This document shows positions 39,606 to 61,078 of a stretch of 64,000 nucleotides of DNA, in pieces. Under the pieces are notes generated by a model. It was given only the letters and a program-made list of their open reading frames with translations. It did no database searches and was not told where the DNA came from. This DNA comes from Spirochaetia bacterium (GTDB lineage: Bacteria > Spirochaetota > Spirochaetia > Sphaerochaetales > Sphaerochaetaceae): positions 2,962,784-3,026,783 of the forward strand of contig JAKVOU010000001.1 of assembly GCA_022482625.1 (NCBI GenBank). Direction: 5' to 3'. Positions within the stretch are counted from its first letter, which is position 1, and every line of letters starts with the position of its first letter. The translations under genes and the position numbers were made by a program.

Positions 39606-39629
39606 GTGAGAAAGGAGTGAGGTGTAACT

Positions 39630-40121: not shown

Positions 40122-40130
40122 GAGATGAGA

Positions 40131-43039: not shown

Positions 43040-44371
43040 ATGTTCAATACTCCAAAAGTAACTGATATGAAGGTAATTCCCGTTGCTGGATGTGACAGTA
43101 TGCTACTGTCTCTCAGTGGGGCACATTATCCATATTTTACAAGAAACATCGTAATTTTGACTGATGACAGCGGTCATACCGGAATCGGCGAAGTACACGG
43201 TGGAAAGAGAATTACCCAAAGTCTTCAGGCCTGTGTGCCTGAAGTGGTTGGCAAACCGATCGGAGCCTATAGGAATATCATCAGCAAGCTGCGAAGGATA
43301 CACGACTGTGGTTGCAAGGACAGCGATGGATTGCAGAATTTGGATTTGTGCAAACTTGCTGATGTCGTACACTTTGAAACAGCTATTGAATGTGCTCTCT
43401 TGGACTTGATGGGGCAGTTCATGGATGTTCCCGTATGTGAACTTCTGGGTGATGGCAAACAAAGAGATGATGTAGTCGTATTGGGATATCTTTTCTATCA
43501 GGCAGATTCCAAGAAAACTGATTTGCCATATATCCATGAGAAAAAATGCGGAAATCCTTGGTTTGATGTCAGAAGAAATACGTATATGACCAGTGACTCG
43601 ATAGTAGAACAAGCCCAGGCCTTGCAAGAATACTATGGTTTCAAGGATTTTAAGCTGAAGGGTGGAGTTTTTTCTGGTGAAGAAGAAATGGAAGCTGTCG
43701 AAAAATTGGCCAAGACTTTTCCCGATGCAAGAATCAATATCGATCCCAATGGGGCTTGGAAGCTGGAACAGGCAATTGATCTCTGTAAGGGCAGTTCGCT
43801 TACCTATGCTGAAGATCCCTGCGGTACTGAATGCGGCTATTCAGGCAGAGAAACAATGGCAGAATTCAAGGAAGCGACAGGAATTCCGACGGCTACCAAT
43901 ATGATTGCTACGGATTGGAGACAATTCAAGCATGCAATTGTAGAAAAGTCAGTTGATATCGTACTTGCAGATCCTCATTTCTGGCTGATGTCCGGTTCTG
44001 TCAGGATTGCACAGGTTCTGAACGATTGGAAGCTTACCTGGGGATGCCATTCCAACAATCATTTTGATGTTTCCTTGGCAATATTTGCCCAGTGTGCCGC
44101 TGCCTGTCCTGGTAACATTACAGCTATGGATACACACTGGATTTGGCAGGATGGACAGTACCTGACTAAAAATCCGTATCAGATAAAAGAAGGTAAGATC
44201 CATATTCCTGATGCTCCTGGTCTTGGACTTGATATAGACATGGATGCAATCATGAAGGCGAATGAACTGTATGAAAGTCTGTCATTTGCAGATCGGAATG
44301 ATGCCTTGGGTATGCAATATCTTATACCTGGTTGGAAATTTGATTCCAAGCTGCCTTGCCTCGTGCGATAA
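43040..44371 (+). CDS. Glucarate dehydratase-like enolase-superfamily protein (443 aa), GudX-like
   Basis: Closely related to the GudD next door in general plan ([97 protein letters not shown]). The catalytic Lys (KLKGG), metal ligands (DPNG, EDPCG, NMIATDW) and the catalytic His (CHSNNHF) are all kept. The region around residue 95-110 differs (RRIHDCGCKDSDGLQNLDLC), close to the substrate-specificity loop. It may be a glucarate dehydratase-related protein as GudX, or act on idarate or another hexarate. Start ATG 43040 has AAAGGA. Confidence 0.85.
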   Translation: MFNTPKVTDMKVIPVAGCDSMLLSLSGAHYPYFTRNIVILTDDSGHTGIGEVHGGKRITQSLQACVPEVVGKPIGAYRNIISKLRRIHDCGCKDSDGLQNLDLCKLADVVHFETAIECALLDLMGQFMDVPVCELLGDGKQRDDVVVLGYLFYQADSKKTDLPYIHEKKCGNPWFDVRRNTYMTSDSIVEQAQALQEYYGFKDFKLKGGVFSGEEEMEAVEKLAKTFPDARINIDPNGAWKLEQAIDLCKGSSLTYAEDPCGTECGYSGRETMAEFKEATGIPTATNMIATDWRQFKHAIVEKSVDIVLADPHFWLMSGSVRIAQVLNDWKLTWGCHSNNHFDVSLAIFAQCAAACPGNITAMDTHWIWQDGQYLTKNPYQIKEGKIHIPDAPGLGLDIDMDAIMKANELYESLSFADRNDALGMQYLIPGWKFDSKLPCLVR

Positions 44372-44596: not shown

Positions 44597-45919
44597 ATGT
44601 CACCAAAAGTTATTGATATGCAGGTTTATCCCGTTGCGGGGCACGATTCAATGTTGTTGAATCTCAGTGGTGCCCATGGCCCATTCTTTACCCGTAATGT
44701 GGTGATTCTGACAGATGATGCCGGACACACCGGAGTAGGTGAGGTTCCTGGTGGACAAAAAATCACGAAAGCTTTGGAAGAAGCCAAGAGCCTTATCGTT
44801 GGGTCGGCAATCGGTGACTATAAGAATACGCTGCTGAAGGTCAAGGACTCAATTCAGAGTGAGAATGATGTAAGGGGTGACCAGACCTATGACCTTCGTA
44901 CCGGAGTACATGTACTTACGGCAGTGGAAGCTCCCTTGCTGGATTTGCTGGGCCAGTATCTTGGTGTACCTGTAGCATCCCTTTTAGGTGATGGCATGGT
45001 AAGAAGAAAGGTAAAAGTACTTGGCTACCTCTTTTTTGTAGGGGACAGGAACAAGACTGATCTTCCATATTGCAATGAACAGGACAGCGATGTCGAATGG
45101 TATAGGCTTCGAAGGGAAGAAGCCATGACTCCTGAGAAAATCGTGGCACTGGCGAAAGCAAGCAAGAGTCTCTATGGGTTCAAGGATTTCAAGCTCAAGG
45201 GTGGTGTCCTCAAAGGTGAGGAAGAGATGGAATGCATCATTGCCCTGAAGAAGGAATTTCCTGATGCACGTATTACTCTTGATCCGAATGGTGGTTGGTT
45301 ACTTAAGGATGCCATAAGGCTCTGCAAGGATAAACATGGAATTCTTACGTATTGCGAAGATCCCTGTGGTGCTGAGGAAGGATATTCCGGACGTGAAATC
45401 ATGGCTGAATTCCGCAGGGCAACAGGATTGCCTACGGCAACGAACATGATTGATACCGATTGGAGACAGATGCAGCATGCCATAGCGCAGAATGCAGTGG
45501 ATATTCCTTTGGCAGATCCGCATTTCTGGACTATGGAAGGTTCTGTAAGGGTTGCTCAGCTCTGCAATGATTTTGGGCTTACCTGGGGCTGCCATTCAAA
45601 TAATCATTTTGATATTTCCTTGGCGATGATTGCCCATTGTGGATCTGCGGCTCCTGGGAATCCGACTGCATTGGATACCCATTGGATCTGGCAGGAAGGC
45701 GAGGAAAGACTTACCAAAGAACCTCCTCGGATTGAAAATGGTTGTCTGACGATTACCGACAAACCGGGACTTGGAATTGACGTTGATATGGATAGGATTA
45801 TTGCAGCAAACGACCTTTATAAGAAACATTGCCTTGGGGCAAGAAATGATGCTGCAGCAATGCAATATCTGGTACCAGGATGGAAATTTAATGCAAAGCG
45901 TCCATGCTTGGTACGTTGA
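44597..45919 (+). CDS. gudD: D-glucarate dehydratase (440 aa)
   Basis: Dehydrates D-glucarate (and L-idarate) to 5-keto-4-deoxy-D-glucarate. It follows the well-known family sequence closely: [70 protein letters not shown] with catalytic Lys, [60 protein letters not shown] with catalytic His, and DTHWIWQEG. All active-site residues appear intact. The ATG at 44597 has GGAAGGAG. A 225-base gap separates it from the paralogue upstream, suggesting separate control. Confidence 0.95.
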
Positions 45920-46226: not shown

Positions 46227-47753
46227 ATGCTAATATACAAGCCCCAGCAAATAATCAAAATCGCATCCACGGATAATGTTGCCATTGCAATCAGGCAAAT
46301 AAAAAAAGGTACGCAATTATCTCCCGACTTAATTGCGACCGAAAATATTCCACAAGGACATAAAATTGCCTTATACAATCTCAAAAAGGGTGATAAAATT
46401 TTTCGTTATGGAGTTGAATTAGGACATTTGCTTGTCGATACATCGAAAGGTAGTTGGATAAATGAAAAAATGCTATCACTACCAGCAGCTCCACAACTAA
46501 AAAATCTTGATTTAACTTGTCAGTTGACTCCGCCAAAATTCATTCCTCCACGTATGACATTTCAAGGATATGAAGTCCCGGGAAGCCCTTATGCAGGTAC
46601 ACGTAACATCCTTGGCATTACAACTACGGTCCAGTGTGTTGCAGGAGTACTCAGAGTTGCAGTTGAAAAAATGAAACGGGAACTATTACCCAAATATTCC
46701 AATGTTGATGATATTGTTTCGCTTGAGCATCCATATGGATGTGGAGTCGCAATCAATGCAAAAGATGCAGATATTCCAATACGTGCAATCAAGAATCTTG
46801 CTAAAAACCCTAATTTTGGCGGAGAGCTCATGGTAGTTGGCCTAGGATGTGAAAAGTTAACTGTGGACAAATTACTTGATTCCGAAGATAACAATAGTGA
46901 TAACGTTATCATGCTACAGGATTGCAAGGGATTCAATGCAATGATTGATGCATTAATGACTATGGCTGACAAAAAGTTAAGGAAACTCAATACAAGAAAA
47001 AGAACAACGCTACCGCTTTCTGCTTTATGTATTGGTCTTCAATGCGGAGGAAGTGACGCATTCAGTGGAATAACTGCAAATCCATCTGCCGGATATGCAA
47101 GTGATCTTTTGGTAAGCGGAGGAGCTACAGTTTTATTCAGTGAAGTAACAGAAGTACGAGACGGCGTGGATAAAATCGCTCATCGTTGTGTAGATACTGG
47201 TACAGTAAAAAAACTTGCTCAACAGATGGCTTGGTATGACAATTACTTAGAAAAGGGGAATGTCGATCGTAATGCAAATCCTACTCCAGGTAATAAACAA
47301 GGCGGCCTATGTAATATTGTGGAAAAGGCAATGGGTTCTATAGCAAAAAGTGGTACTAGCCCTATTGTAGAAGTGCTTGCTCCTGGCGAGCTTCCCTCCA
47401 AACATGGAATGATTTTTGCAGCAACTCCAGCCAGTGATTTTGTTTGTGGCCCTATGCAATTAGCAAGTGGTATCACTTTACAAGTTTTTATGACCGGACG
47501 AGGTACTCCTTATGGATTGGCAGTTGCTCCTGTCATCAAGGTTTGTTCCAGAACCGAACTAAAGAACATGTGGAATGATTTGATCGATGTAAACGCAGGT
47601 ACTATTGCTACAGGAGAAAAAACCATCCAACAGGTAGGACTGGAATTATTTAATCTGATTTTGGATATTGCATCAGGACAAAAAAAACCGTGGGCAGAAA
47701 AATATAATCTGGCAAATAGTCTTTGTATTTTTAATCCTGCACCAATCACATAG
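46227..47753 (+). CDS. garD: Galactarate dehydratase (508 aa)
   Basis: Dehydrates galactarate (mucate) to 5-keto-4-deoxy-D-glucarate. The UxaA/GarD family layout is complete: an N-terminal SAF domain (IPQGHKIALYNLKKGDKIFRYG, in part), then GTRNILGITTTVQCVAGVLR, LEHPYGCGVAINAKDA, NPNFGGELMVVGLGCEKL, LQCGGSDAFSGITANPSAGY, FSEVTEVRDG, and the C-terminal FMTGRGTPYGLAVAPVIKV and INAGTIATGE-like VNAGTIATGEKT. It is strongly similar to E. coli GarD in order and spacing. More AT-rich than gudD and garR. Confidence 0.95.
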   Translation: MLIYKPQQIIKIASTDNVAIAIRQIKKGTQLSPDLIATENIPQGHKIALYNLKKGDKIFRYGVELGHLLVDTSKGSWINEKMLSLPAAPQLKNLDLTCQLTPPKFIPPRMTFQGYEVPGSPYAGTRNILGITTTVQCVAGVLRVAVEKMKRELLPKYSNVDDIVSLEHPYGCGVAINAKDADIPIRAIKNLAKNPNFGGELMVVGLGCEKLTVDKLLDSEDNNSDNVIMLQDCKGFNAMIDALMTMADKKLRKLNTRKRTTLPLSALCIGLQCGGSDAFSGITANPSAGYASDLLVSGGATVLFSEVTEVRDGVDKIAHRCVDTGTVKKLAQQMAWYDNYLEKGNVDRNANPTPGNKQGGLCNIVEKAMGSIAKSGTSPIVEVLAPGELPSKHGMIFAATPASDFVCGPMQLASGITLQVFMTGRGTPYGLAVAPVIKVCSRTELKNMWNDLIDVNAGTIATGEKTIQQVGLELFNLILDIASGQKKPWAEKYNLANSLCIFNPAPIT

Positions 47754-48047: not shown

Positions 48048-48932
48048 ATGAAGATTGGATTCATTGGACTTGGTATCATGGGCAAACCCATGGTAAAGAA
48101 CCTGCTGAAGGCAGGCTATGAAGTTGTCGTATATGACATCATAAAAGAAAATGTTGACCAGATGATTGCTGCCGGAGCTTCTTCCGGCAAGAGCGCCGCC
48201 GAGATAGCAGCCAGTTGTCCTGTAGTCATCACCATGTTGCCGAATTCACCTCATGTGAAGACCGTAGTCTTGGGCAAGGACGGCGTTCTGGAAGGTGCAA
48301 AGCCCGGCCTCAAGTATATTGACATGAGCTCCATTGCTCCTCTGGCAAGCCAGGAAGTTGGGAAGGCCTGTGCGGCAAAGGGCGTGCGCATGCTTGATGC
48401 TCCTGTTTCCGGCGGAGAGCCGAAGGCAATAGACGGGACCATGTCGATCATGGTCGGCGGTGACAAGGACCTGTTCGAGGAAGTCAAGCCGATCTTCGAG
48501 GTACTGGGCGGATCATACGTGCTCTGTGGCTCGATCGGGGCCGGCAATACGACAAAGCTTGCAAACCAGATGATCGTTGCAGGCAATATTGCAATCCTGG
48601 CCGAAGCCCTTACCTTGGCCAAGAAGGCTGGTGTTGATCCCCAGACTGTGTTCGAAGCCATCAGAGGTGGCCTTGCCGGTTCGACTGTGATGAATGCAAA
48701 GGCACCCATGATGATTGCAGGGGATTTCAAGCCTGGCTTCAAGATTGACCTGCACATCAAGGACCTGAACAATGCCATTGAGACCGGACATGGTATCGGT
48801 TCCCCCATGCCGCTGACCGTTGAGGTACAGGAGATGCTTGAGAACCTTCACTTTGAGGGCAAGGGCCAGCATGACCACAGCGGTTTGGCTGAGTACTATG
48901 CGAAAGTATCCGGTACAAAAATCGGCAAGTAA
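48048..48932 (+). CDS. garR: Tartronate semialdehyde reductase, copy 1 (294 aa)
   Basis: Reduces tartronate semialdehyde (2-hydroxy-3-oxopropanoate) to D-glycerate with NAD(P)H. A beta-hydroxyacid dehydrogenase: dinucleotide motif GFIGLGIMGKPMVKNL (residues 4-19), substrate-binding DAPVSGGEPKAIDGT (about 120), and the catalytic Lys in GNTTKLANQMIVAGN (about 170). The gene is visibly richer in G/C, especially at third positions, than the AT-rich genes around it. A second, very similar copy is at 59736-60620. It is followed 12 bases later by a DapA-family gene. Confidence 0.93.
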   Translation: MKIGFIGLGIMGKPMVKNLLKAGYEVVVYDIIKENVDQMIAAGASSGKSAAEIAASCPVVITMLPNSPHVKTVVLGKDGVLEGAKPGLKYIDMSSIAPLASQEVGKACAAKGVRMLDAPVSGGEPKAIDGTMSIMVGGDKDLFEEVKPIFEVLGGSYVLCGSIGAGNTTKLANQMIVAGNIAILAEALTLAKKAGVDPQTVFEAIRGGLAGSTVMNAKAPMMIAGDFKPGFKIDLHIKDLNNAIETGHGIGSPMPLTVEVQEMLENLHFEGKGQHDHSGLAEYYAKVSGTKIGK

Positions 48933-48944
48933 GGAATGAATACA

Positions 48945-49844
48945 ATGGACACGGATTTCTTCAAAGGTATCATCGTACCGATCTTGACTCCAATGACTGA
49001 TGACGAGCGTATTGATGCTGAAAGGTTGTGCAGGCAGGTAGACTTTGTTATTGATGGCGGAGTCTCCGGTATCCTGCTGTTTGGCAGCAACGGAGAATTC
49101 TACGTCATGGAGGAAAGCGAGATTGAGCAGTCTCTTGGACTCGTTGTAGAACATGTAGCGGGACGTGTACCCGTATACATGGGAATCGGAGCAATCAGGA
49201 CGAGCAAATGCGTAAGGCTGGCAAAGATGGCGCAAGGGTATGGAGTGAATGGCATTTCTATCCTTCAGCCCATGTTCCTGAAGCCTTCTGAAGATGAGCT
49301 GCGAACACATTTTGCAACTATTGCTGAAGCCGTGTCTGACCTGCCTGTATTGCTGTATAACAATCCGGGCAGGACTGGTTACGGCATAAGCCAGGACTGC
49401 GTGGAATATCTGGCACATCACCAGGAAAACATCATAGGCATGAAGGACAGCAGCGGCAATCTGACAGAAACCATTGAGTTCATCCGCAGGAACCATGATG
49501 TGAATTTCAAGGTCATGTGCGGAAAAGACACTTTGATTTATTCAGGTCTTAGTGCTGGGTGTGTAGGAGCAGTTTGCAGTACCGCAAATTTTCTTCCCAA
49601 GCTTGTCTGTTCCATCTATGATAAGTTCACGGCTGGAGATTCAAAGGGCTCCTTGGAAGCCCAATGGAGATTGAATCCGATCCGTCTGCAGATGGATAAG
49701 AGCAGTTTCCCTGTTGCAACAAAGGACTATGCGAATCTTCTTGGTCTTGATGTGGGTGCACCTATATTGCCATGTAAGCCTTCTGATCAACAGCAGATGG
49801 ATGGACTGAAACAGCAACTGAAGGAATCGGGTTATATTGATTGA
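48945..49844 (+). CDS. DapA-family aldolase/dehydratase (299 aa), candidate for 5-keto-4-deoxyglucarate cleavage
   Basis: A Schiff-base TIM barrel of the DHDPS/NAL superfamily. GIIVPILTPMTDDERIDAER is the N-terminal motif, GSNGEFYVM the phosphate/carboxylate loop, LLYNNPGRTG holds the Tyr-x-x-P motif, and GMKDSSGNL contains the Schiff-base Lys (about residue 165). The start at ATG 48945 is preferred over 48936 because the latter overlaps AAGGAATG. In this locus the usual HpcH-type aldolase GarL is missing, so this enzyme is a good candidate for splitting 5-keto-4-deoxyglucarate to pyruvate and tartronate semialdehyde; KdgD-type dehydration is the alternative. Confidence 0.85.
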   Translation: MDTDFFKGIIVPILTPMTDDERIDAERLCRQVDFVIDGGVSGILLFGSNGEFYVMEESEIEQSLGLVVEHVAGRVPVYMGIGAIRTSKCVRLAKMAQGYGVNGISILQPMFLKPSEDELRTHFATIAEAVSDLPVLLYNNPGRTGYGISQDCVEYLAHHQENIIGMKDSSGNLTETIEFIRRNHDVNFKVMCGKDTLIYSGLSAGCVGAVCSTANFLPKLVCSIYDKFTAGDSKGSLEAQWRLNPIRLQMDKSSFPVATKDYANLLGLDVGAPILPCKPSDQQQMDGLKQQLKESGYID

Positions 49845-49930: not shown

Positions 49931-50920
49931 ATGAAAAAAATATTGTTTGTGTTTTGTATCTTGCTAGGAAGTATGTCTCTTGTTTTTGCTAATGGGCAAG
50001 GGGAATCAAATGATTCTACTTGGGCAAAAAAAGTAGAAATCCAAGTACCTGCCCGTGCTGGGGGTGGAAGTGATGTCATAGCAAGGACACTAGGTACTGA
50101 AGTGGCAAAGGCATCCGGTCGAACATTTACTATTGTCAATGATACAGATGGCAATGGAGTAGTTGCGTTTGAAAAGACTCGAACAGCAAAGACTGACGGA
50201 AGTACTCTACTTGCATATCATACATCTATGTTGATTAAGATGGCAACAAATGTTTATAACCATTCATTAGATGATTTTACAGTGATTGGAGTTGCTCATC
50301 CGTTGGATCAAGCACCGGAGGTTTTTGTTGTAGGTGCCGATTCTCCTTATCAATCGTTAGATGATTTTGTAAAGGCTGCAAAAGCGGCACCTGATACTTT
50401 GCTTGTAGGTGTTGAAACAGGAGGGGTGTCTCATATTATAGGAGGTCTCTTTGACAATGCTGCTGGTATTACTCTCAAATTTGTCGAGGCAGGTAGTGAT
50501 ACTGAGAAACTGACTTCTTTGGTTGGAAAAAATATTGATGCTTGCATAGTCAATGTAAATCAAGCAAAACAATATGTACAATCGAACAAAGTCAGGGCCT
50601 TAGGGGTGATTTCACGAGATAGTGAGGGAGGAAAAAGTGAAGTACTTCCTGATGTACCCAGTTTTATTCAGCAGGGCTATAATGTTGATTTCTGTATTTT
50701 CGATCTTTTATTGGGTCCAAAAGACATGAATCTTGATCTGGTTGCATCCATCTATAATTATTATGCAAACGCGGCTACTTCTGATGCTGTCAATGCAGTA
50801 CTGGAACCGGCAGGATTTGCAATGGAATTTTACGGGCAGGAAAAAGGTTTGCAGGTAATTGAGAAACAACAGAAGGAACTGAACGAAATAGTCAAGGATC
50901 TTGGATTGATGAAGAAGTAG
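49931..50920 (+). CDS. tctC: TTT-family solute-binding protein TctC, copy 2 (329 aa)
   Basis: A second Bug/TctC receptor. The signal peptide ends in LVFANGQGES. Family residues: KKVEIQVPARAGGGSDVIAR, TIVNDTDGNGVVAFEKTR, GVETGGVSHIIGGLFDNAA, LKFVEAGSDTEKLTSLVGKN. It differs substantially from copy 1 (about the level of distant paralogues), so it probably recognises another acid. The operon TctC-TctB-TctA continues with an MBL-fold hydrolase. Confidence 0.92.
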   Translation: MKKILFVFCILLGSMSLVFANGQGESNDSTWAKKVEIQVPARAGGGSDVIARTLGTEVAKASGRTFTIVNDTDGNGVVAFEKTRTAKTDGSTLLAYHTSMLIKMATNVYNHSLDDFTVIGVAHPLDQAPEVFVVGADSPYQSLDDFVKAAKAAPDTLLVGVETGGVSHIIGGLFDNAAGITLKFVEAGSDTEKLTSLVGKNIDACIVNVNQAKQYVQSNKVRALGVISRDSEGGKSEVLPDVPSFIQQGYNVDFCIFDLLLGPKDMNLDLVASIYNYYANAATSDAVNAVLEPAGFAMEFYGQEKGLQVIEKQQKELNEIVKDLGLMKK

Positions 50921-50977
50921 GCTTTGCCATCTTTATCTTGGAGAAAGTGTAATATCTTTCTCCATGAAGGAAAATAT

Positions 50978-51442
50978 ATGAAAGTTAAACGTGATCAAAT
51001 AACAGGTTCAATTTTAATATTGTTTGGAATCTGTGTGCTTGTATTAATACAGCAGTTTCAGAAAAATTTTTCATTGTCTTATCCAGGGCCTAAGTTTGTA
51101 CCTGCATGCGCAGCCATTGGCTTTTTAATCTGTGGCAGTGGTATTTTCATTGAAAGTTCATTGAATAAGAAAGAAGAAAAAAAGTTTCTTGTGAAAGATG
51201 GCTGGATGAGAATGTTTGTAAGTGTATGTATCTTATGTTTATATGTCTTAGCAATGAAATATTTTGGCTATTTGGTATGTACACCTATATTCACTTATGC
51301 CATTGTAACATTATTCGCAAGAGAGAAAAAAACGACACTGATAGGGCGGATATTTTTTTCTCTTTCTGTTAGTTTTATCGTGTATGCTGTCTATGTGTTT
51401 GCCTTTGGCATGTCGTTGCCTGTAGGTCTTGTCTTTGACTAA
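50978..51442 (+). CDS. tctB: TTT-family small permease TctB, copy 2 (154 aa)
   Basis: A four-helix small subunit with the family motif in the first loop: FSLSYPGPKFVPACAAIGF. The start at ATG 50978 follows GAAGGAAAA; the upstream ATG at 50924 would give an N-terminal extension (MPSLSWRKCNIF) unlike the family. It lies between tctC and tctA of copy 2, 15 bases before the latter. Confidence 0.83.
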   Translation: MKVKRDQITGSILILFGICVLVLIQQFQKNFSLSYPGPKFVPACAAIGFLICGSGIFIESSLNKKEEKKFLVKDGWMRMFVSVCILCLYVLAMKYFGYLVCTPIFTYAIVTLFAREKKTTLIGRIFFSLSVSFIVYAVYVFAFGMSLPVGLVFD

Positions 51443-51457
51443 AAAAGGAGTACTTTT

Positions 51458-52960
51458 ATGGGTTCTTATTTGCCCTATATTCTATCACAACTACTACAAC
51501 CATTTAATTTTAGTCTGCTGTTGATAGGAAATATTATTGGTTTGATTTTTGGGGCTATTCCAGGTCTTTCTGGGACACTTGCAGTTATTCTTTTCATGGC
51601 ATTGACTTATACAATGAAAACCGCTCCTTCGGTAATCTTTTTGATAAGTCTTTGGGTGGGAGGCTGTTCCGGTGCCTTTATTGGATCGATTTTGCTTGGT
51701 ATTCCGGGATCGCCCTCTGCCGTTGCAACTTGTTTTGATGGTTATCCGATGGCTCAGAAAGGTAAGGCAGGAAAGGCACTGGCTATTGGTATGTGTGCTT
51801 CGCTGATTGGTACTTTTTTCAGTGCGATTTTCGGTGCTCTTTTGAGTGAGAAAATTGCAGATCTTGCTTTCAAGTTGGGACCATGGGAATATTTTTCTCT
51901 TTGTTTGCTTGCTATTACTATGGTAGTGGCAATTTCAAAAGGAAATATGTTGAAAGGGTTGGCCTCCGGATTCCTTGGGCTTTTATTGGCTTGTATTGGC
52001 TATTCTCCAATTGATGCCGAACCTCGTTTCGTTTTTGGGAATATGTATTTGATGAGTGGTTTAAGTATGATTGTTGTAATGATTGGTATATTTGGAGTTA
52101 GCAAAATTCTTTATGAATATGCCAAAGGATTTTCAGTGTTGCCTGAAGTCGATACTAAGTCAATCAAGGGGTTGGGAATTACCCTTCATGAAATCAAGGC
52201 ACAATTCGGTAATATACTTCGATCCTTCGGTATTGGTCTTGGCATAGGATTTCTGCCTGGTATGGGAGCTGGTTTGTCTAATCTTGTTTCTTATTCAGCT
52301 TGCAAGAATGCTTCTAAACATCCTGAACGTTTTGGAACTGGTGTCCCTGAGGGGCTATGGGCTTCCGAAGTTGCAAACAATGCGTCGGTTGGTGGCTCTT
52401 TAATTCCTATGTCTGCTTTGGGAATACCTGGTGATTCGACTACTGCATTGCTTATCGGTGCTCTTACAATACATGGGCTTGAAATGGGGCCTATGGTTTT
52501 TAAGAACAGTGGTAATATTGTATTCTTAATGTTTGGTGCTGTTGCAGCAGGAGCTATCATAGTATTTATTCTCCAAGCTTTGGGGATGAGGATTTTTCCA
52601 GAAATTTTAAAGGTACCCTATCATTATATGTATCCTGCTTTGCTGGTTGTTTCATTTGTGAGTTGCTATGTTGAGTCTGCAAGTTTGTATAAATGCGGGA
52701 TGCTCATTGTATTTGCCATTTTAGGTGTTGTTATGGCTTTTGGAGATTTACCTGTAGCTCCGCTTATTCTTGCCTTTATTCTTGAACCTACATTGGAGTC
52801 AAATATGCTTAAGGCTTTTCAATATACGGGGACCGGTGTTACGTTCTTTGCTAGACCGATTTCTTGTATTTTCATTTTATTATCTATTTTCAGTGTTTTC
52901 TCTCCGATTTTACGTTTTCTATTTAATAAATTTAAGAAGAACAAGGCTCTATCGGCATAA
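51458..52960 (+). CDS. tctA: TTT-family large permease TctA, copy 2 (500 aa)
   Basis: The large permease. Family fingerprints: GAIPGLSGTLAVILFMALTY, GAFIGSILLGIPGSPSAVAT, GFLPGMGAGLSNLVSYSACK, EVANNASVGGSLIPMSALGI followed by PGDSTTALLIGAL. These give reference points for the truncated TctA pieces downstream (53838 and 56040). Preceded by AAGGAG. Followed by an MBL-fold gene 18 bases later. Confidence 0.92.
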   Translation: MGSYLPYILSQLLQPFNFSLLLIGNIIGLIFGAIPGLSGTLAVILFMALTYTMKTAPSVIFLISLWVGGCSGAFIGSILLGIPGSPSAVATCFDGYPMAQKGKAGKALAIGMCASLIGTFFSAIFGALLSEKIADLAFKLGPWEYFSLCLLAITMVVAISKGNMLKGLASGFLGLLLACIGYSPIDAEPRFVFGNMYLMSGLSMIVVMIGIFGVSKILYEYAKGFSVLPEVDTKSIKGLGITLHEIKAQFGNILRSFGIGLGIGFLPGMGAGLSNLVSYSACKNASKHPERFGTGVPEGLWASEVANNASVGGSLIPMSALGIPGDSTTALLIGALTIHGLEMGPMVFKNSGNIVFLMFGAVAAGAIIVFILQALGMRIFPEILKVPYHYMYPALLVVSFVSCYVESASLYKCGMLIVFAILGVVMAFGDLPVAPLILAFILEPTLESNMLKAFQYTGTGVTFFARPISCIFILLSIFSVFSPILRFLFNKFKKNKALSA

Positions 52961-52977
52961 AATTTTAGGAGGAATCT

Positions 52978-53835
52978 ATGTCATTGCAATATAATACTGT
53001 TGACAAATTGTTATCAGCTGAGGTCTTGATGGAGCATTGTTGCAGAGAACCATGGGACACATATCAATCACCTATTAAGATGGCTCCTCGTGTATATTAT
53101 GTATCCGGCAATAATTGGGTAGCTAGCTACCTTATTGATACTGGAGATGGGTTGATACTAATTGATACCGGCATGCATGAAACTGCGTATCTATTATTGG
53201 AAAATATTCGTAAACTTGGTTTTGACTATCGTGATATAAAAAAAATATTACTTTCTCATGCACACATAGACCATATAGGTGCGGCAAGGACTTTGAAGGA
53301 GCTGACCAAAGCGGATTTGTACTTGGGAAAAAGGGACTTACTTTTTCTGCATGAAAGGCGAGATTTGATTTATATTGGTAATTATACCTGTGGCTTATTT
53401 GAACCAGATTATATTTATGATGATGAAAAGCCCATTATACAGGGAGATATTACTATACGTACTATATCTACGCCTGGGCATACTCCCGGCTGTACCTCGT
53501 TTTTCTTTGATGTCAGGGATGATATACATAATAAAATTTTGCATTGCGGTATGCATGGTGGTATTGGAGTTACCTGTACAAAGAAAGCATTGAATCAGAT
53601 GGGACTTCCGCTGTCATTGCAGACTGAATTTGCAGAGGGGCTAGAAAATTTGGATAAAATGGATATTGATGTTTGTTTGCCTTCTCATACAAATCAAGTG
53701 GATATACTATCACTTCAGGATCAAGTTACTGACAGTTTCAACCCCTATGATGATCCATCAGTATGGCATAAACTTATGAAAGAGCGACTAATGCGGGTTA
53801 AGACTATGATTGAAGAAGAGAAGGATAAATATTAG
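52978..53835 (+). CDS. MBL-fold metallo-hydrolase, copy 1 (285 aa)
   Basis: A metallo-beta-lactamase-fold hydrolase. HAHIDH (residues 94-99) is the dinuclear metal motif; STPGHTPGCTSFFF supplies a third ligand; LPSHTNQVDI near the C-terminus carries another His. The N-terminus (APRVYYVSGNNWVASYLIDT) is similar to that of the second copy at 54538. The family includes lactonases, thioesterases and other hydrolases; next to hexarate genes, opening of a sugar-acid lactone is an appealing but unproven role. The stop overlaps the following chimeric frame. Confidence 0.85.
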   Translation: MSLQYNTVDKLLSAEVLMEHCCREPWDTYQSPIKMAPRVYYVSGNNWVASYLIDTGDGLILIDTGMHETAYLLLENIRKLGFDYRDIKKILLSHAHIDHIGAARTLKELTKADLYLGKRDLLFLHERRDLIYIGNYTCGLFEPDYIYDDEKPIIQGDITIRTISTPGHTPGCTSFFFDVRDDIHNKILHCGMHGGIGVTCTKKALNQMGLPLSLQTEFAEGLENLDKMDIDVCLPSHTNQVDILSLQDQVTDSFNPYDDPSVWHKLMKERLMRVKTMIEEEKDKY

Positions 53836-53837
53836 CT

Positions 53838-54532
53838 TGTCAAATAATGCAGCTTGTGGCGGAGCTATGATTCCCATGGTTGCATTAGGAATTCCTAGGG
53901 ACTCAACTACTGCAATTATTGAAGCGATTCCAAAAGAAAAAATAACATCTAGGGAACCAGAATTGCTTATAAAGGCAAAGGGGCTGTTACCCAAACTTTT
54001 TATCAAGAAAATAGATGTCTTGATTGTTGATACTATAGGTAAAAATTTTAGTGGTGCTGGCATGGATGCAAATATTACAGGGTCGTTCATATCTCCGTTT
54101 GCAAGCGGAGGACCTGAGGTTGAAAGATATGTGATATTGGATTTGAGCAAAGAATCACATGGAAATGCAATGGGCGCCGGCCGAGCTGATTTCATGACAA
54201 AGCGTTTGTTCGATAAAATAGATTTTGATTCAGCATATCCAAATGCTTTGACCTGTAAGCTTCTTTTAGGCGCAAAAATCCCAATTGTTTTAAAGAATGA
54301 TGAAGATGCAATAAAAGCCGGAATTTTCACCTGTGATTCAATTGATTTTGACAACCCTAGAATTGTCCGTATCCATGATAGTTCGCATGTTACAAAAATT
54401 ATGGTTTCAGAAGCGTTGTCAGAAGAAGTGGAAAAATCTTCAGAAATGAAATTGCTTTCTGAATTCCAGCCAATGACTTTTGATGAAAAAGGTAATTTGG
54501 ATATTTCTTCTGACTTTTGGAATAGAAGGTGA
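53838..54532 (+). pseudogene. Deletion-fusion pseudogene: TctA segment joined to LarA-like C-terminus
   Basis: The first ~27 codons (SNNAACGGAMIPMVALGIPR, then DSTTAII) equal the conserved TctA core (compare NNASVGGSLIPMSALGIPGD in the intact copy). Without a stop, the frame runs into EAIPKEKITSREPELL... which aligns with DSILAKDVLDREPELL in the LarA-like protein at 56212, and continues to its end (DVLIVDTIGKNFSGAGMDAN, ITGSFISPFASGG). Hence everything between the middle of a lost TctA and the middle of a lost LarA was deleted. The LarA part lacks the N-terminal catalytic half. A TTG at 53810 could start translation inside the MBL gene. Confidence 0.85.
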
Positions 54533-54537
54533 AAATT

Positions 54538-55419
54538 ATGAAAACAATGAAAAAGGCATATGAGGATTATTTACAACGGCGGAATATTTTAATGCAAGAT
54601 TCCCATGCTCAATTTTGGTTTGAGCAAGAAAAGCGTTATGTACATCCATTTCGGATATTTGGAAATATTTATTATGTGGGTGATAACTGGGTGTGTGTCC
54701 ATATCATTGATACAGGAGATGGACTTTTAATGATTGATGCTGGAAATGTTGGGGCAACAGCTATGCTTATAAATTCAATTTGGGAAATTGGATTGGATCC
54801 TAAAAATGTAAAATGGATTATTTTAAGTCATGGGCATGTAGATCATATTGGAGCGGCTTGGTTTTTCAAGAGGATGTTTGGAACAAGGTTGTTGATGGGC
54901 GAACCTGATGCCATAAATTTTAAGGAAAAACCAGAATTGTCAGCAATTCAAGATGCAGGACAGTTACAGGATTCTTTGTTCATGGTGGATGAGGTAATAA
55001 GAGATGGTGATGTTAAACAGTTTGGAAATACTCTGATACATTTTTTTCTTGTTCCTGGACATACGGATGGATGTGTAGCTGCTTTTTTTGATGTTTCTGA
55101 TGGTGTCTCCTTTAAAAGGGCCGGTTATTATGGAGGATTTGGATTTAATACTTTGCAAAAAGATTATTTACTGGAAATAGGCGATAATACCTTTAATCAT
55201 CGGAAAATGTATCTTAATTCGCTTCGGCATGTCAGAGAACAGAAGGTTGATATTTTCTTGGGAAATCATACTGAGAATAATCATTTGTTGGAAAAGAGGA
55301 AACAAATGTTAATGGGCTGTAGCAAAAATCCCTTTATTAATTCGTCCGAATGGAAAGAATATTTGGATAAGAAGCGCGATGCCCTTATGTTATTTATGAA
55401 TGATCCCAAAAACAAATAA
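54538..55419 (+). CDS. MBL-fold metallo-hydrolase, copy 2 (293 aa)
   Basis: A paralogue of the MBL protein at 52978. HGHVDH (residues 98-103) provides the metal site, LVPGHTDGCVAAFF a further ligand, and FLGNHTENNHL a C-terminal His. Shared N-terminal pattern FGNIYYVGDNWVCVHIIDTG. Somewhat longer. ATG 54538 sits six bases after the stop of the chimeric pseudogene with AGAAGG upstream. The duplication of MBL genes around TTT and LarA pieces suggests repeated cassettes TTT-MBL-LarA. Confidence 0.85.
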   Translation: MKTMKKAYEDYLQRRNILMQDSHAQFWFEQEKRYVHPFRIFGNIYYVGDNWVCVHIIDTGDGLLMIDAGNVGATAMLINSIWEIGLDPKNVKWIILSHGHVDHIGAAWFFKRMFGTRLLMGEPDAINFKEKPELSAIQDAGQLQDSLFMVDEVIRDGDVKQFGNTLIHFFLVPGHTDGCVAAFFDVSDGVSFKRAGYYGGFGFNTLQKDYLLEIGDNTFNHRKMYLNSLRHVREQKVDIFLGNHTENNHLLEKRKQMLMGCSKNPFINSSEWKEYLDKKRDALMLFMNDPKNK

Positions 55420-55468
55420 GAAAAATTTTATTTTGTACACGAATGATGGAAAACATTGATCCAATCGT

Positions 55469-55717
55469 TCAATTGGGCTTTTCATCCCGATATCTGAGCA
55501 AAATGGAAGTTGCGAGGCTCCGTTTCAGGAATTCCTCGATTTTCATGTTCATATCCCGTGGCGTATTCGTGATGAAGGCAAAGAGGTTCAGATAGTCCTG
55601 CAGGTCATCCCTGCAGAAGCCGCCGTGGACATTGAGGGATCTTTTTCAGCAGCCTGTGCACGCTGTTGATCCTGTCCATGGGATTGCCATAGCCTGCAAG
55701 GCCCCTCGTTTCCCTCG
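55469..55717 (-). pseudogene. IS1595-like transposase C-terminal remnant, second site
   Basis: Read on the minus strand: RGLAGYGNPMDRINSVHRLL then KK in one frame, and after a one-base shift NVHGGFCRDDLQDYLNLFAF, ITNTPRDMNMKIEEFLKRSL, ATSILLRYRDEKPN-stop. The layout (INS-x-H-x-x-LKK ... DYLNLF) is that of the C-terminus of IS1595/ISXO2-type transposases. The frameshift and missing N-terminus make it a pseudogene. It is more complete than the copy at 37640-37756. Its left edge meets the TctC::TctA pseudogene at a CCCTCGAGGG palindrome (55712-55721). Confidence 0.6.
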
Positions 55718-55720
55718 AGG

Positions 55721-56212
55721 GTTACTTTTGCAAATGGTTCAACAAAACAACAGCAATCACAGGATAGTAGTACTACGGCTACATCAGTTAAATGGCCCTC
55801 GACTGTAGAAATCATTGTTCCTGCAGGTGCAGGTGACGATACTGATTTTAATGCTCGATTACTTGCCCAGAAGTTATCTAAAAAAATATATATTAATTTT
55901 GTAGTATCTAATGTAAATGGTAATGGAGGAGCAACAGGAATTCGACAAGTAAGGAATACAAAACCAGATGGCTCTACTGTTTTGTTTTACTATTCTGCAG
56001 TAGTAGTCAATCAGTTGACTGGAGCTGCTGATTATGGATTTGTTTTGGGCGGTATTATCGAACAAAATCTTATCCGTGGCCTCATGTATGCAAATGGCAA
56101 TTTCTTAGTTTTCTTTACTTCGCCGGTAGCTGCTGTTTGTCTTGGGTTAGCAGTTGTCTATATGATATATTTGATTATAAAACAAATAAAAATGAAAAGG
56201 GAGCAGCATTAA
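55721..56212 (+). pseudogene. Deletion-fusion pseudogene: TctC N-terminus joined to TctA C-terminus
   Basis: A 163-codon frame without a start codon opens with VTFANGSTKQQQSQDSS, the end of a signal peptide, then TctC sequence (STVEIIVPAGAGDDTDFNAR, SNVNGNGGATGIRQVRNTKP, DGSTVLFYYSAVVVNQLTG). It then passes in frame into the end of a TctA (VLGGIIEQNLIRGLMYANGN, LVFFTSPVAAVCLGLAVVYM, then a basic tail KQIKMKREQH). The end of TctC, all of TctB and most of TctA are missing. The signal-peptide start was lost at the transposase junction. Its stop overlaps the start of the LarA-like gene, keeping that gene's original context. Confidence 0.85.
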
Positions 56213-57528
56213 TGGTTAAGGTTGAAAAAGATGGGAAAGTATCCCAATTATTAAGTTCTGTACTGATTCCACGAATGTTTCATGCAACCCAAGTTTTCCC
56301 TAATGAAAAAATTAAATGTGAAGATATTCCCGCCTATGTTGACGCGTTACTTAATGATAGTTGCTATAAGTCTTTGGTGAGACCTGCTATGAATATTGCT
56401 ATTACTGCCGGTAGTAGGGGAATACGTAATATTGACATAATTACAAAGGCAATAGTGGATTGGGTAAAAAGGCAACATGCTGTTCCTTTTATTGTCCCTG
56501 CAATGGGGAGTCATGGAGGTGCAACCGCCCAAGGGCAACGAGAGATTCTGACTCATTATGGGATTTCAGAAAGGACAATGGGTTGTCCTGTAGTTTCTTC
56601 AATGGAAGTAATAAAACTAGGTGTTTCGAAAAGCGGTAAAACGGTCTTTTTCGATAAACATGCCTATGAAGCAGATGGTATCATCGTTTCGTGTAGAATT
56701 AAACCTCATAACGCATTTCGAGGGCCTATAGAAAGTGGTATCTGCAAGATGCTGACTGTTGGTTTGGGAAAACAAATTGGCGCTTCTGTTGTTCATGGTG
56801 ATGGAATGGCTCATATAGCGCAAAATATTCCTGAAATGGCAAAAGTAGTATTGGAAAAAGCTCCAGTACTTTTTGCCGTTGCAACTATTGAAAATGCTTA
56901 TGATCAAACATATATGATTGATTCTATTCTTGCAAAAGATGTTCTTGATCGTGAACCTGAATTATTGAAAATTGCCTTTAGGCAAATGCCATCGCTTTTG
57001 GTTGGAAAAACCGATGTATTGATTGTAGATGAAATTGGTAAAAATTTTAGTGGGACCGGAGTAGATCCAAATATTACTGGTACTTTTTCTACTCCATATG
57101 CTTCGGGAGGTATAAAAGTTCAGCGAACCTGTATGCTTGATTTGACGGAGGAATCTGATGGAAATGCGTTGGGTATCGGACTTGCTGATGTTATTACAAA
57201 TAAGATTTTTTCCAAAATGGATATTAGCAAGATGTATCCTAATTGTATTACCAGTACTGTATTGGCGTCAGCAAAGATTCCATGTATTGTATATAGCGAT
57301 AAAGAAGCAATTCAACTGTGTATTCGTACATGTACAGGTTTATCAGGGAAGCAACCTTATGTTGTTAGAATTCCTAACAGTTTGAATATTGGGCAGGTAA
57401 TGCTTTCAGAGCGATATTATAATGATGTTATAGGGGGTAAATATCCTAATGTCCATGCAGTTGATCAACCGAAAGCTTTGGAATTTGATCAAGCTGGTAT
57501 GTTGCAAACTACCTGCCTAATTGATTAA
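56212..57528 (+). CDS. LarA-like (DUF2088/lactate racemase domain) protein (438 aa)
   Basis: A full-length relative of nickel-pincer lactate racemase LarA, of the subgroup often seen next to TTT transporters. Conserved areas: AITAGSRGIRNIDIITKAIV, VPAMGSHGGATAQGQREIL with a His, RIKPHNAFRGPIESGICKML (possible His and pincer-Lys), SVVHGDG, and the C-terminal DVLIVDEIGKNFSGTGVDPN followed by ITGTFSTPYASGG. The His-to-Lys spacing differs from classical LarA, so the reaction may be another alpha-hydroxyacid racemisation or epimerisation. ATG 56212 shares a base with the preceding stop. LarB/C/E maturation genes are not in the window. Confidence 0.83.
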   Translation: MVKVEKDGKVSQLLSSVLIPRMFHATQVFPNEKIKCEDIPAYVDALLNDSCYKSLVRPAMNIAITAGSRGIRNIDIITKAIVDWVKRQHAVPFIVPAMGSHGGATAQGQREILTHYGISERTMGCPVVSSMEVIKLGVSKSGKTVFFDKHAYEADGIIVSCRIKPHNAFRGPIESGICKMLTVGLGKQIGASVVHGDGMAHIAQNIPEMAKVVLEKAPVLFAVATIENAYDQTYMIDSILAKDVLDREPELLKIAFRQMPSLLVGKTDVLIVDEIGKNFSGTGVDPNITGTFSTPYASGGIKVQRTCMLDLTEESDGNALGIGLADVITNKIFSKMDISKMYPNCITSTVLASAKIPCIVYSDKEAIQLCIRTCTGLSGKQPYVVRIPNSLNIGQVMLSERYYNDVIGGKYPNVHAVDQPKALEFDQAGMLQTTCLID

Positions 57529-57581
57529 GTTGCTAACAGTATGTTGGGTGTAATTATTTATATCTGAAAGGGTAATGCTCA

Positions 57582-58583
57582 ATGGGAAAGAAAAAAGTTT
57601 TCGTAGGACAAGCGGTTTCATCATCTGGTATTAATTATCTGATTAGTCATGGGTATCAAGTCGTTAATGCCACAAAAGCTGATCCAAGAGTTTGGGTACA
57701 TGAAATAGGTGATGCGGATGGTTTTTTTTCCAGAGGTACCATAGGGTGCCCTGGTTTTGTAATGGATGTTGCAAAATCTCTCAAAGTCATAGGAAACTAT
57801 GGTGTTGGAATTGACAAAATAGATGTCAAGCATGCCACAGAGCTCGGCATACAGGTGACGAATGGTCCCTATTCTAATTTGGTTGCAGTAGCTGAGTATA
57901 CAATGGCTTTGATTTTGGCTCTCGAAACGGATTTAATTCATATGGATAGTCAAACACGGGAAGGACATTGGAATGATATTCGAGATACGACTAACGCCCG
58001 TGAAATCAAAGGGAGAACATTGGGAATTGTAGGTTTTGGCCATATAGGAAGGTATGTAGCCCAATGTGCTAAAACCTTCGGTATGCATATTATAATATAT
58101 AATCATAATCTTTCAAAGGATACTGTCCCTGGTTATGTTACTTTGATTGATTCCCTTGCTGAGATCTTTAGTAAAGCAGATGTCGTTTCTTTGCATGTAC
58201 CTTTGACTAAAGCGACTTTTCATCTTGTCAGTGATGGCCTTCTCAATTGTATGAAGCCATCTGCATATATTATTAATTGTGCCCGTGGTGGTGTCATTGA
58301 TGAGAACGCTTTATATACGAAGCTTGTTAATAAAGAAATTGCCGGAGCTGGAATTAATTGTTTTGAGGAAGAACCTGTCAGATCTGGCAATAAATTACTG
58401 AAACTAAGCAATATTATTGTAGGACCTCATAGTGCAGGACAAACAGTAGATTCTGTTGAACGGATGAGTCTACATGCTGCAATTGGGATAGATGAAGTCT
58501 TAAGTGGGAAAAATCCTTCATGGCCTGTTAATTTTGTAGATAAGAAAATTATTTCTAAATGTATGCAAACTAACTCTAGATAG
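57582..58583 (+). CDS. D-2-hydroxyacid dehydrogenase (333 aa)
   Basis: The two-domain D-isomer-specific 2-hydroxyacid dehydrogenase family (as in phosphoglycerate, hydroxypyruvate or glyoxylate reductases). The NAD-binding motif VGFGHIGRYVAQCAKTFG is at about residue 150; the catalytic Arg is in NCARGGVIDENAL, Glu in CFEEEPV, and His in VGPHSAGQT. NGPYSNLVAVAEYTMALIL is the usual dimer helix. It follows the LarA-like gene by 54 bases and probably oxidises or reduces the product of the racemase. Substrate unknown. Confidence 0.88.
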   Translation: MGKKKVFVGQAVSSSGINYLISHGYQVVNATKADPRVWVHEIGDADGFFSRGTIGCPGFVMDVAKSLKVIGNYGVGIDKIDVKHATELGIQVTNGPYSNLVAVAEYTMALILALETDLIHMDSQTREGHWNDIRDTTNAREIKGRTLGIVGFGHIGRYVAQCAKTFGMHIIIYNHNLSKDTVPGYVTLIDSLAEIFSKADVVSLHVPLTKATFHLVSDGLLNCMKPSAYIINCARGGVIDENALYTKLVNKEIAGAGINCFEEEPVRSGNKLLKLSNIIVGPHSAGQTVDSVERMSLHAAIGIDEVLSGKNPSWPVNFVDKKIISKCMQTNSR

Positions 58584-58778: not shown

Positions 58779-58804
58779 AAAATAAAGATATTTTTGAGGT
58801 GTAT

Positions 58805-59593
58805 ATGGCAGTTGACAATGACAAATACAGTATCAAAGCTGTAATGAGATGTTTCCAGATTCTTGATTTTGCGGCTGACCATAATGGTCCTATATCCATT
58901 CCTGATGTATGCACAGCTTTGGATACCAACAGCAATATGGCTTTCAGGTTACTCAACAGCCTTGAGAGTTCCGGATATATGGTAAAGGATGCTACTACCG
59001 GTTTATATTCCGTTTCCCTGAAGACATTGAAGCTGTCAAGGAGAGCATTGCAATCGTTGGTAATACGTAAAGTTACCATGCCTTATCTTGAATTGCTATG
59101 GAACCAGTATCCGAAGGCAAATGCCAATATGGCAGTCTTCCATCAAGATGAGGTCCTTATGCTTGACCGTGTCGACACACAAACTACTCCACGTACCTAT
59201 TTTACTCCTGGCCGTGTCTTGCCTTTTCATTGTTCTGGACTGGGAAAAGTGCTGACTTGTTCGCTCCCGGAAAAAGAAATTGACAAACTGATAAAAGAAA
59301 AAGGATTGAAAAAGTATACCGAGAATACTATTACTGATCCTGATCGCTTGAAAGAGGAATTACGGAAGGTAAAGGAAGAAGGTGTCGGTCGGGACAGAAA
59401 TGAGTTTATGCAGGGTGACAATTGTTCTGCAGTTCCTATTTTCGGGCATGAAGGTGCAATAGTTGCAGCAATCAGTCTCAGTTCACTTTCTACGAACATG
59501 AGTGCAGACGAAATTGAGGCAGCTATTCCTGTATTGAAAGATACGGCGACAAAGATTTCTTATGTGATGGGATTTGGTGCACAGTTGCTCTGA
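58805..59593 (+). CDS. IclR-family transcriptional regulator (262 aa)
   Basis: The N-terminal winged HTH (about residues 10-70) reads SIKAVMRCFQILDFAADHNG and SIPDVCTALDTNSNMAFRLL then NSLESSGYM. The C-terminal IclR effector domain has PFHCSGLGKVLTCSLPEKEI, GVGRDRNEFMQGDNCSAVPI and FGHEGAIVAAISLSSL. KdgR-like IclR proteins typically control sugar-acid pathways, so this is the most likely regulator of the hexarate/TTT island. ATG 58805 has GAGG; GTG 58799 would add two residues. Confidence 0.92.
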   Translation: MAVDNDKYSIKAVMRCFQILDFAADHNGPISIPDVCTALDTNSNMAFRLLNSLESSGYMVKDATTGLYSVSLKTLKLSRRALQSLVIRKVTMPYLELLWNQYPKANANMAVFHQDEVLMLDRVDTQTTPRTYFTPGRVLPFHCSGLGKVLTCSLPEKEIDKLIKEKGLKKYTENTITDPDRLKEELRKVKEEGVGRDRNEFMQGDNCSAVPIFGHEGAIVAAISLSSLSTNMSADEIEAAIPVLKDTATKISYVMGFGAQLL

Positions 59594-59658: not shown

Positions 59659-59692
59659 ATGCAGCTTCCGTTTCTAAAAACGGAAGCTGCAT
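59659..59692. terminator. Bidirectional terminator between iclR and garR copy 2
   Basis: ATGCAGCTTCCGTTT (59659-59673) pairs perfectly with AAACGGAAGCTGCAT (59678-59692), followed on the plus strand by GCCAATTTTTAC. It lies between two convergent genes. Confidence 0.8.
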
Positions 59693-59735: not shown

Positions 59736-60620
59736 TCAATCTCCGATAGAAATACCGGATAATTGCTTATAGTAAAGAGCCAGTCCACTGTGATCTTCCA
59801 GACCTTTTCCCTGTGCATGTAAGTTTTCAAACATTTCCTGCACAGCGACTGTCAAAGGAAGCGGAGACCCGAATTTATGGGCAGACATAATTGCATTGTT
59901 CAGATCCTTGATATGCAGGTCAATCCTGAAACCAGGCTTGAAATCTCCTGCAATCATCATCGGAGCCTTTGCGTTCATTACAGTTGAACCAGCAAGTCCA
60001 CCTTTGATGGCTTCGAATACAGTCTGCGGATCAACACCAGCTTTCTTGGCCAAGGTAAGTGCCTCAGCAAGAATAGCAATATTACCGGCAACGATTATCT
60101 GATTTGCCAGTTTTGTTGTGTTTCCCGCTCCGACAGAGCCACAATAGACAACAGAAGAGCCCATGGCATTCAATATAGGTTCACACTGTTCAAATATCTG
60201 TTTCTCACCGCCGACCATAATCGAAAGGGTGCCGTCAATTGCTTTTGGTTCTCCGCCTGAAACCGGGGCATCAAGCATCTTGATACCTTTCTGCGCACAG
60301 GCCACTGCAACATCCTGACTGTCTGTAGGTGCTATGGAACTCATATCGATTAGAATAGTTCCGGTTTTTGCATTGTCAAGCAGCCCATCTTTGTCCATGA
60401 CGACAGATTTGACCTGAGGACCATTTGGAAGCATGGTAATGATGATATCTGCCCTTTGCATGATATCTTGGGCAGACGTACCTGCCACAGCACCATCTTT
60501 AGCTACAGCATCGATGTTTGACTGATGATGGTCGCTCACCAGAACTTCATAACCAGCCTTAAGCAGATTTCTGACCATGGGCTTGCCCATGATACCGAGA
60601 CCGATAAATGCAATCTTCAT
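59736..60620 (-). CDS. garR: Tartronate semialdehyde reductase, copy 2 (294 aa)
   Basis: A second beta-hydroxyacid dehydrogenase nearly parallel to the copy at 48048 over its whole length: AFIGLGIMGKPMVRNLLKAG, DAPVSGGEPKAIDGTLSIMV, GNTTKLANQIIVAGNIAILA and the identical block EALTLAKKAGVDPQTVFEAI. The start at ATG 60620 has CGGAGG; the farther in-frame ATG is not needed. It is convergent with iclR and has its own AT-rich promoter region. Two copies may serve the glucarate/galactarate and another route (e.g. glyoxylate via tartronate semialdehyde). Confidence 0.93.
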   Translation of the reverse strand: MKIAFIGLGIMGKPMVRNLLKAGYEVLVSDHHQSNIDAVAKDGAVAGTSAQDIMQRADIIITMLPNGPQVKSVVMDKDGLLDNAKTGTILIDMSSIAPTDSQDVAVACAQKGIKMLDAPVSGGEPKAIDGTLSIMVGGEKQIFEQCEPILNAMGSSVVYCGSVGAGNTTKLANQIIVAGNIAILAEALTLAKKAGVDPQTVFEAIKGGLAGSTVMNAKAPMMIAGDFKPGFRIDLHIKDLNNAIMSAHKFGSPLPLTVAVQEMFENLHAQGKGLEDHSGLALYYKQLSGISIGD

Positions 60621-61078
60621 GTTTTTCCTCCGGATTCTGTATAAAAAACTAACATATTGTAAAATTTTGGTCAAATATAATTATATTAATTTATAAAAAT
60701 ATAAATATTTTATAATTTAAAAATAAATATTTTTATATTTGTGATAATATATCGAGTTTCCTTGAGGTGTTTATACGCTGGTTCCCTGTGGAATCCTTCA
60801 ACAGTGCTGAAGGAACAAATATTTTTGAGGAATCGTGGCATGGTATACATGTGCTGTACTGGAATGGATAGAGTCTTTGGGCAATAGCTTTATTTCAAAA
60901 GTAAGGCAGGAGAAGTAAATTACTCTGGAGAACTGCCAGAGGTATCCCTTGTCTTCCTTACGAATTGGTATATTCTGTGAAAGATCTGCAGGCGTCAAGA
61001 AAAAGATACTGTCCTTTAAAGGGCAGTATCTTTTTACATTTCAGACTATAGCAGGCAATGATATCAGACTGATATTTT
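60621..61078. other. Non-coding region between garR copy 2 and the LacI-type gene
   Basis: 458 bases. The first 130 are extremely AT-rich with several AT palindromes (e.g. ATATAATTATAT) and hold the garR promoter. A hairpin TCCTTCA/TGAAGGA (60794-60814) precedes ATTTTT. The remainder to 60998 has no recognisable gene. Confidence 0.4.
61000..61036 (-). terminator. Terminator of the araA-araD-lacI operon
   Basis: AAAAGATACTG-CCC-type stem: GATACTGTCC (61005-61014) pairs with GGGCAGTATC (61021-61030) with one G-U pair. It is flanked by A-runs on the left and T-runs on the right, so it works on both strands and closes the arabinose operon. Confidence 0.8.

Follow-up and report, generated by a model that had tools for sequence, protein, structure and literature searches.

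What does a LarA-like protein do beside a transporter, two hydrolases and a dehydrogenase in a bacterium of the Spirochaetia? The question is raised by a 64,000-nucleotide stretch of DNA (the window; assembly GCA_022482625.1, contig JAKVOU010000001.1, positions 2,962,784 to 3,026,783), in which positions 49931-58583 carry, as profile matches confirm, TctC/B/A genes of a tripartite tricarboxylate-type transporter (TTT), two metallo-beta-lactamase (MBL)-fold proteins, an intact and a truncated LarA-like protein and a D-2-hydroxyacid dehydrogenase. An earlier note had taken these genes for a repeated cassette and a possible undescribed hydroxy-acid pathway. That reading dissolves once the neighbouring aldarate genes, which it had left out, are included. 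The genes form a mosaic that is inserted in a locus for glucarate/galactarate catabolism (gud/gar; about 38600-60674), and are neither a repeated cassette nor a free-standing pathway. The explanation that we favour, with a confidence slightly above even, is that this gud/gar locus has been extended by a nickel-pincer-type C2 epimerase of acid sugars, a LarA of group 22.

The group-22 LarA protein

The intact LarA-like protein (56212-57528, + strand) matches the profile NF052515 ("nickel pincer cofactor-dependent isomerase, group 22") with 514.6 bits against a cut-off of 400. Its start is the ATG at 56212 and not 56137; the tail of a dead TctA gene makes up bases 56137-56212. Residues R69, H101, H166, K179 and H195 are invariant in 32/32 group-22 sequences. 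Mapped by motif and spacing and not on superposed structures, R69, K179 and H195 match R75, K184 and H200 of LarA, the ligands of the nickel-pincer nucleotide (NPN), while H101 and H166 match the catalytic histidines H108 and H174. An AlphaFold model (pTM 0.71, mean pLDDT 69.5), built on only five sequences and weak in the stretches 166-202 and 278-358, has top fold matches in the PDB that all belong to the LarA family (Z 17-20; next 6.6). A PDB sequence search with LarA, as a single sequence and as a profile, gave no match, and a scan of the genome contigs with it returned three distant loci only and was uninformative. Judged by its residues and the model, group 22 looks able to bind NPN and to work through the two-histidine mechanism, and its substrate pocket appears to be different.

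Other LarA homologues are known to interconvert gluconate and mannonate and, with weak activity, the epimers of arabinarate (PMC7583248; PMC11770544), and Spirochaetota are reported to be rich in LarA (PMC11770544). GntE, the D-gluconate 2-epimerase of LarA groups 19 and 20 (PMC7583248), resembles the proposed enzyme in superfamily, in C2 epimerisation of sugar acids and in its sugar-acid gene context. However, it belongs to another group, and group 22 has no detectable sequence match to the solved GntE structure, with which it shares similarity of fold only (Z 17.6). Databases name group 22 by number only; its gene context points to acid-sugar epimers as candidate substrates.

The aldarate genes around the block

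Aldarate genes border the block on both sides. Upstream, all on the + strand, lie an intact transporter, TctC1-TctB1-TctA1 (38604-41618; Pfam TctC/TctB/TctA), an amidohydrolase-family protein (41507-42796; Pfam Amidohydro_1), a GudX-like paralogue of glucarate dehydratase (43013-44371) and a GudD-like glucarate dehydratase (44597-45919), the galactarate dehydratase GarD (46227-47753; TIGR03248, 733.5 bits, cut-off 730.85), the tartronate semialdehyde reductase GarR (48048-48932; NF008592, 454 bits, cut-off 397) and a DapA-like, GudL-type aldolase for 5-keto-4-deoxyglucarate (5-KDG; 48936-49844). Both GudD-like proteins are full length, and their scores of 757.6 bits (GudD-like) and 661.7 bits (GudX-like) are under the TIGR03247 cut-off of 828.7. 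Downstream of the block are an IclR regulator (58799-59593, + strand) and a second GarR (59736-60674, - strand; NF008592, 441 bits).

GudL is the 5-KDG aldolase of commensal bacteria, with the residues M110, K167 and K194 (PMC11775122). The aldolase of the window has M113, K170 and K197 at the same spacings of 57 and 27, and the three diagnostic residues are also present in the aldolase copies of two relatives, G049 and G007. By sequence comparison, the IclR protein is an orthologue (63-80%) of the regulator of aldarate operons in relatives, where it adjoins combinations of GarD, GudD, GarR, GudL and TctCBA without MBL (e.g. L136, L139, L141 and L142). Since gud/gar genes flank the block and the IclR orthologues accompany aldarate genes in relatives, we place the block inside an aldarate locus. 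The minimum gud/gar set defined in PMC11775122, GudD or GarD together with GarR and with GudL or GarL, is present here, and the gud/gar pathway around the block is complete and of an already known kind. The surrounding cluster makes aldarates the likely substrate class of LarA.

In the scheme that we infer, from each reaction to the exact substrate and the loading of LarA with NPN, the TTT transporter would bring in hexaric acids. The group-22 LarA would then invert the carbon beside the carboxylate by transient hydride transfer to NPN, with H101 and H166 taking part, and would so turn epimers that the dehydratases cannot use, such as talarate/altrarate, mannarate and idarate, into galactarate or glucarate. 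These would be dehydrated by GarD and GudD to 5-KDG, which the GudL-type aldolase would cleave to pyruvate and tartronate semialdehyde, and GarR would reduce the latter to glycerate. Control of the gene set probably lies with the IclR protein. The most likely task of MBL1 and MBL2 is the hydrolysis of a lactone or ester of a sugar acid that comes with the same diet.

The gud/gar pathway of the gut commensal Enterocloster clostridioformis (PMC11775122), a paper that links oxidised-sugar catabolism to the inflamed gut, is the same in its enzymes: GarD, a GudD-like protein, GarR and a GudL that keeps all three diagnostic residues stand side by side in the window. The two differ in transport (TTT here, the ABC transporter GarABC there), and the window has in addition two GudD-like paralogues, an IclR regulator, the group-22 LarA, two MBL-fold proteins and the D-2-hydroxyacid dehydrogenase. 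Transport of glucarate and galactarate by TTT has already been proposed for a Halomonas cluster with TctABC and GguR (PMC5507952), which likewise sets the transporter beside aldarate enzymes. In contrast to the window, the part of that report describing the cluster mentions no LarA, and its regulator is of the GntR type and not of the IclR type. If LarA acts as proposed, a nickel-cofactor step would be added to oxidised-sugar catabolism, and the enzyme would interconvert aldaric acids, compounds in demand as building blocks for chemistry.

Group-22 neighbourhoods in relatives

We searched 150 related genomes for group 22. It is present in 35 of them (one by a weak partial match), and 49 group-22 genes with neighbourhoods were compared. 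Of these, 35/49 have a TTT or TRAP transporter no more than six genes away, in agreement with the import of sugar acids by TTT that the earlier note had suggested. Within the same distance, the dehydrogenase family is found near 7 of the 49 genes, the GarD family near 5 and the GudD family near 5. In 3/12 genomes that have both, GarD proper and a group-22 LarA are no more than 10 kb apart (expected 0.13, P 0.0002); the count includes the genome of the window, which was chosen for this cluster and is not independent, and is two without it.

The LarA of the window is sister to a LarA of G049 (58%, support 1.0), a relative from another genus in which the genes form the operon LarA2-TctC-TctB-TctA-LarA-GudL-GarD. 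The role of C2 epimerase, already predicted in the earlier note, is supported by the operon of this closest relative. In that operon (L044, 9711-18051), two group-22 LarAs with 35% and 58% identity to the LarA of the window surround TctCBA, followed by GudL and GarD. The presence of two suggests two different epimerisations. A third genus (G007) has a full GudL-GarR-GarD-GudD-TctCBA-LarA-GudX set together, and the association of LarA with the aldarate operon is conserved in these two other genera. A group-22 LarA of G056 is flanked by GudX and a pair of TTT systems, in the order GudX-TTT-TTT-LarA.

Across a broader sample of the class, group 22 adjoins further partners: a four-carbon acid-sugar kinase with PdxA in G384 and G376, an IlvD/Edd dehydratase in G153 and a galactonate dehydratase (630 bits, cut-off 311) in G135. 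The theme common to these neighbourhoods is acid-sugar catabolism. A tentative generalisation, to which we give somewhat less than even weight, is that the proteins of group 22 are all C2 epimerases of acid sugars and that the enzyme encoded next to each reveals its substrate: hexarates from GarD/GudD, galactonate from DgoD and threonate/erythronate from the kinase with PdxA. The enzyme of the window would then be a hexarate 2-epimerase, through which rare stereoisomers of the aldarates would also gain entry to the gud/gar pathway.

The same variety of partners, with galactonate dehydratase in one place and a tetronate-type kinase with PdxA in another, could be read differently. LarA might act on another acid, for example a hexonate, a tetronate, lactate or glycerate, and stand in the aldarate locus only since TTT-linked modules accumulate there. 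The locus is indeed a zone of turnover: at least two transporter modules in it are wrecked, and its alternative version has no LarA. Yet in G049, which belongs to another genus, GudL and GarD are in one operon with the sister LarA and its transporter, and the full gud/gar operon of G007 includes LarA. We consider action on such another acid unlikely, although it is the foremost of the alternatives.

Several observations weigh against an aldarate epimerase. The catalytic D72 of LarA is not kept, with A66 at that place, and K298 seems to be replaced by S293 in a profile alignment with canonical LarA that by mistake included one group-22 sequence (L130) and whose score we set aside; some LarA groups are reported to be without catalytic residues such as H174 and K298 (Desguin 2020, PMC7583248). 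Our literature search found no activity data or reported substrate for any group-22 protein, and the per-group context lists of PMC7583248 may cover group 22. The proximity of GudD to LarA is weak (2/15 genomes, P 0.03), most group-22 loci have no aldarate gene, and the related loci L045 and L046 have dehydrogenases instead. A second version of the aldarate genes in the same assembly, described below, sets them by a TRAP transporter without LarA, MBL or dehydrogenase. The LarA gene has also lost its own transporter, and the module may be decaying.

The supply of cofactor is a further point on this side. While larE-larB-larC are encoded in the same genome (C1:409626-411895), 26/34 genomes with group 22 (the weak partial match set aside) have no larB, larC or larE. 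Independence of group 22 from NPN was considered on these grounds and rejected, as 17/24 genomes with an over-cut-off canonical LarA are likewise without the three genes. An example from these counts is G049 (C1:3372362, a single-contig genome). In this class, NPN is either scavenged or made by another route of synthesis.

Two further arrangements of LarA genes were observed. A group-22 LarA directly adjoins a LarA homologue of another group in G127 (C146:29623-32168), G134 (C1:331083-333713) and G095 (C1:131084-133800), possibly as a paired system. A canonical LarA adjoins a gene of the GarD/altronate-dehydratase family in at least seven genomes: G000 (C1:2418502-2421223), G003, G018, G022, G093, G119 and G134.

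MBL-fold proteins, dehydrogenase and wrecked modules

From 49931 onwards, the + strand carries TctC2-TctB2-TctA2 (intact; 49931-52960, by Pfam), MBL1 (52978-53835), a chimeric open reading frame (ORF), MBL2 (54529-55419), a region of scrap, LarA, the D-2-hydroxyacid dehydrogenase (57582-58583) and IclR. This adjacency on one strand invites the scheme of the earlier note as a single pathway, in which MBL opens a lactone, LarA epimerises the acid and the dehydrogenase oxidises the product. MBL1 and MBL2, which are 31% identical, have the zinc ligands HxHxDH, H196 and H263 (HAHIDH, H168 and H237 in MBL1). They resemble subclass B3 metallo-beta-lactamases such as GOB-18 in fold and in all zinc ligands. 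However, both are under the cut-off of 240 for NF033105, the subclass B3 profile (155.8 bits for MBL1, 140.6 for MBL2), and they stand in a catabolic context; we do not call them beta-lactamases.

Relatives of the MBL proteins occur with TTT (G095, 42%), with TTT and a galactonate-dehydratase-like enzyme (G037) and with TRAP (G137), which makes a lactonase role plausible; another, in G087, is found with an ABC sugar transporter, an enolase-family dehydratase and IclR. The closest relative of MBL1 (62%, G007, L107 6085-12275) argues against the single pathway, being part of an L-rhamnose isomerase/kinase/aldolase cluster beside a serine beta-lactamase-fold protein. Among 19 MBL1-like genes in 16 genomes, no pairing of MBL with LarA was found outside the genome of the window, and MBL is near a group-22 LarA in 1/6 genomes, again its own. 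A role as sugar-acid lactonase or esterase is plausible for the MBL proteins from these contexts, and not specific.

The dehydrogenase, of the phosphoglycerate dehydrogenase/glyoxylate reductase type, keeps the catalytic Arg/Glu/His (R235, E264 and H283). Its relatives near 7/49 group-22 LarA genes are in favour of a joint pathway, but a final oxidation is superfluous where GarD, GudD, GudL and GarR are present. The pathway makes tartronate semialdehyde and glycerate, so a reductase role is more natural, and the dehydrogenase more likely acts as a 2-oxo-acid reductase (for example on hydroxypyruvate) than by oxidising the substrate. Taken together, import and epimerisation are the supported steps of the proposed chain, and the oxidation step is not needed. 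Co-occurrence across genomes holds for TTT with LarA and fails for MBL with LarA, and a fixed TTT-MBL-LarA-dehydrogenase set is not supported. We regard the single pathway as improbable.

The repeats in the block are of mixed origin. The chimeric ORF (53810-54532) is a deletion product in which about 28 TctA residues (about 305-332; 64% to TctA2) are joined to LarA residues 233-435; as a pseudogene, TctA'::LarA', it spans 53837-54532 on the + strand, and its LarA part is the C-terminal half of a second LarA of group 22. This half, LarA', shows 42% identity to the intact LarA and 66% to a LarA from another clade, which occurs together with TRAP and dehydrogenase genes. The stretch 55727-56212 (+ strand) joins an N-terminal piece of TctC (TctC'', 55727-56041) to a C-terminal tail of TctA (TctA'', 56042-56212). 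The block thus holds one intact TctCBA and two wrecks, TctA'::LarA' and TctC''::TctA''; of the TTT copies named in the earlier note, one is intact and two are ruins, and another intact TctCBA lies outside the block at 38604-41618. Tandem duplication as the origin of the repeats was rejected, since LarA' belongs to another clade and the two MBL proteins are as divergent as stated above; the notion of a repeated cassette falls for the same reasons.

Among the transporters compared, the one in the LarA-GarD operon of G049 is the best match to the dead TctC and TctA pieces (67% and 59%), which indicates that LarA came with, or descended in, such a TctCBA-LarA unit and then lost its own transporter. 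A short degraded repeat at about 55446-55720, probably a mobile-element remnant, recurs in weak form elsewhere in the genome (C3:10291 and window 37692). By sequence comparison, the region is a mosaic of modules with internal deletions. One could go further and regard the whole block as a decaying, non-functional remnant of foreign sugar-acid operons, given two chimeric deletions and a mobile-element scrap within 2.4 kb. This we hold to be very improbable, because TctC2B2A2, MBL1, MBL2, LarA and the dehydrogenase all have their full length and their catalytic residues are intact.

A second contig of the same assembly (C2, 1749-28369) is 98-99.5% identical to pieces of the window between 20814 and 49820. 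Its version has no GarD and a different TctCBA, and there the aldolase is followed by a TRAP transporter and an amidohydrolase. Either the block varies between strains or only one of two copies has it. An insertion at window position 34390 carries an apparent IS110-type transposase. An Rfam scan of the window gave no matches, and scans of it for promoters and terminators gave counts not above those of shuffled sequence. At 59659-59692, between the convergent IclR gene and second GarR, is a strong 15-pair hairpin with a T tail, likely a terminator shared by both.

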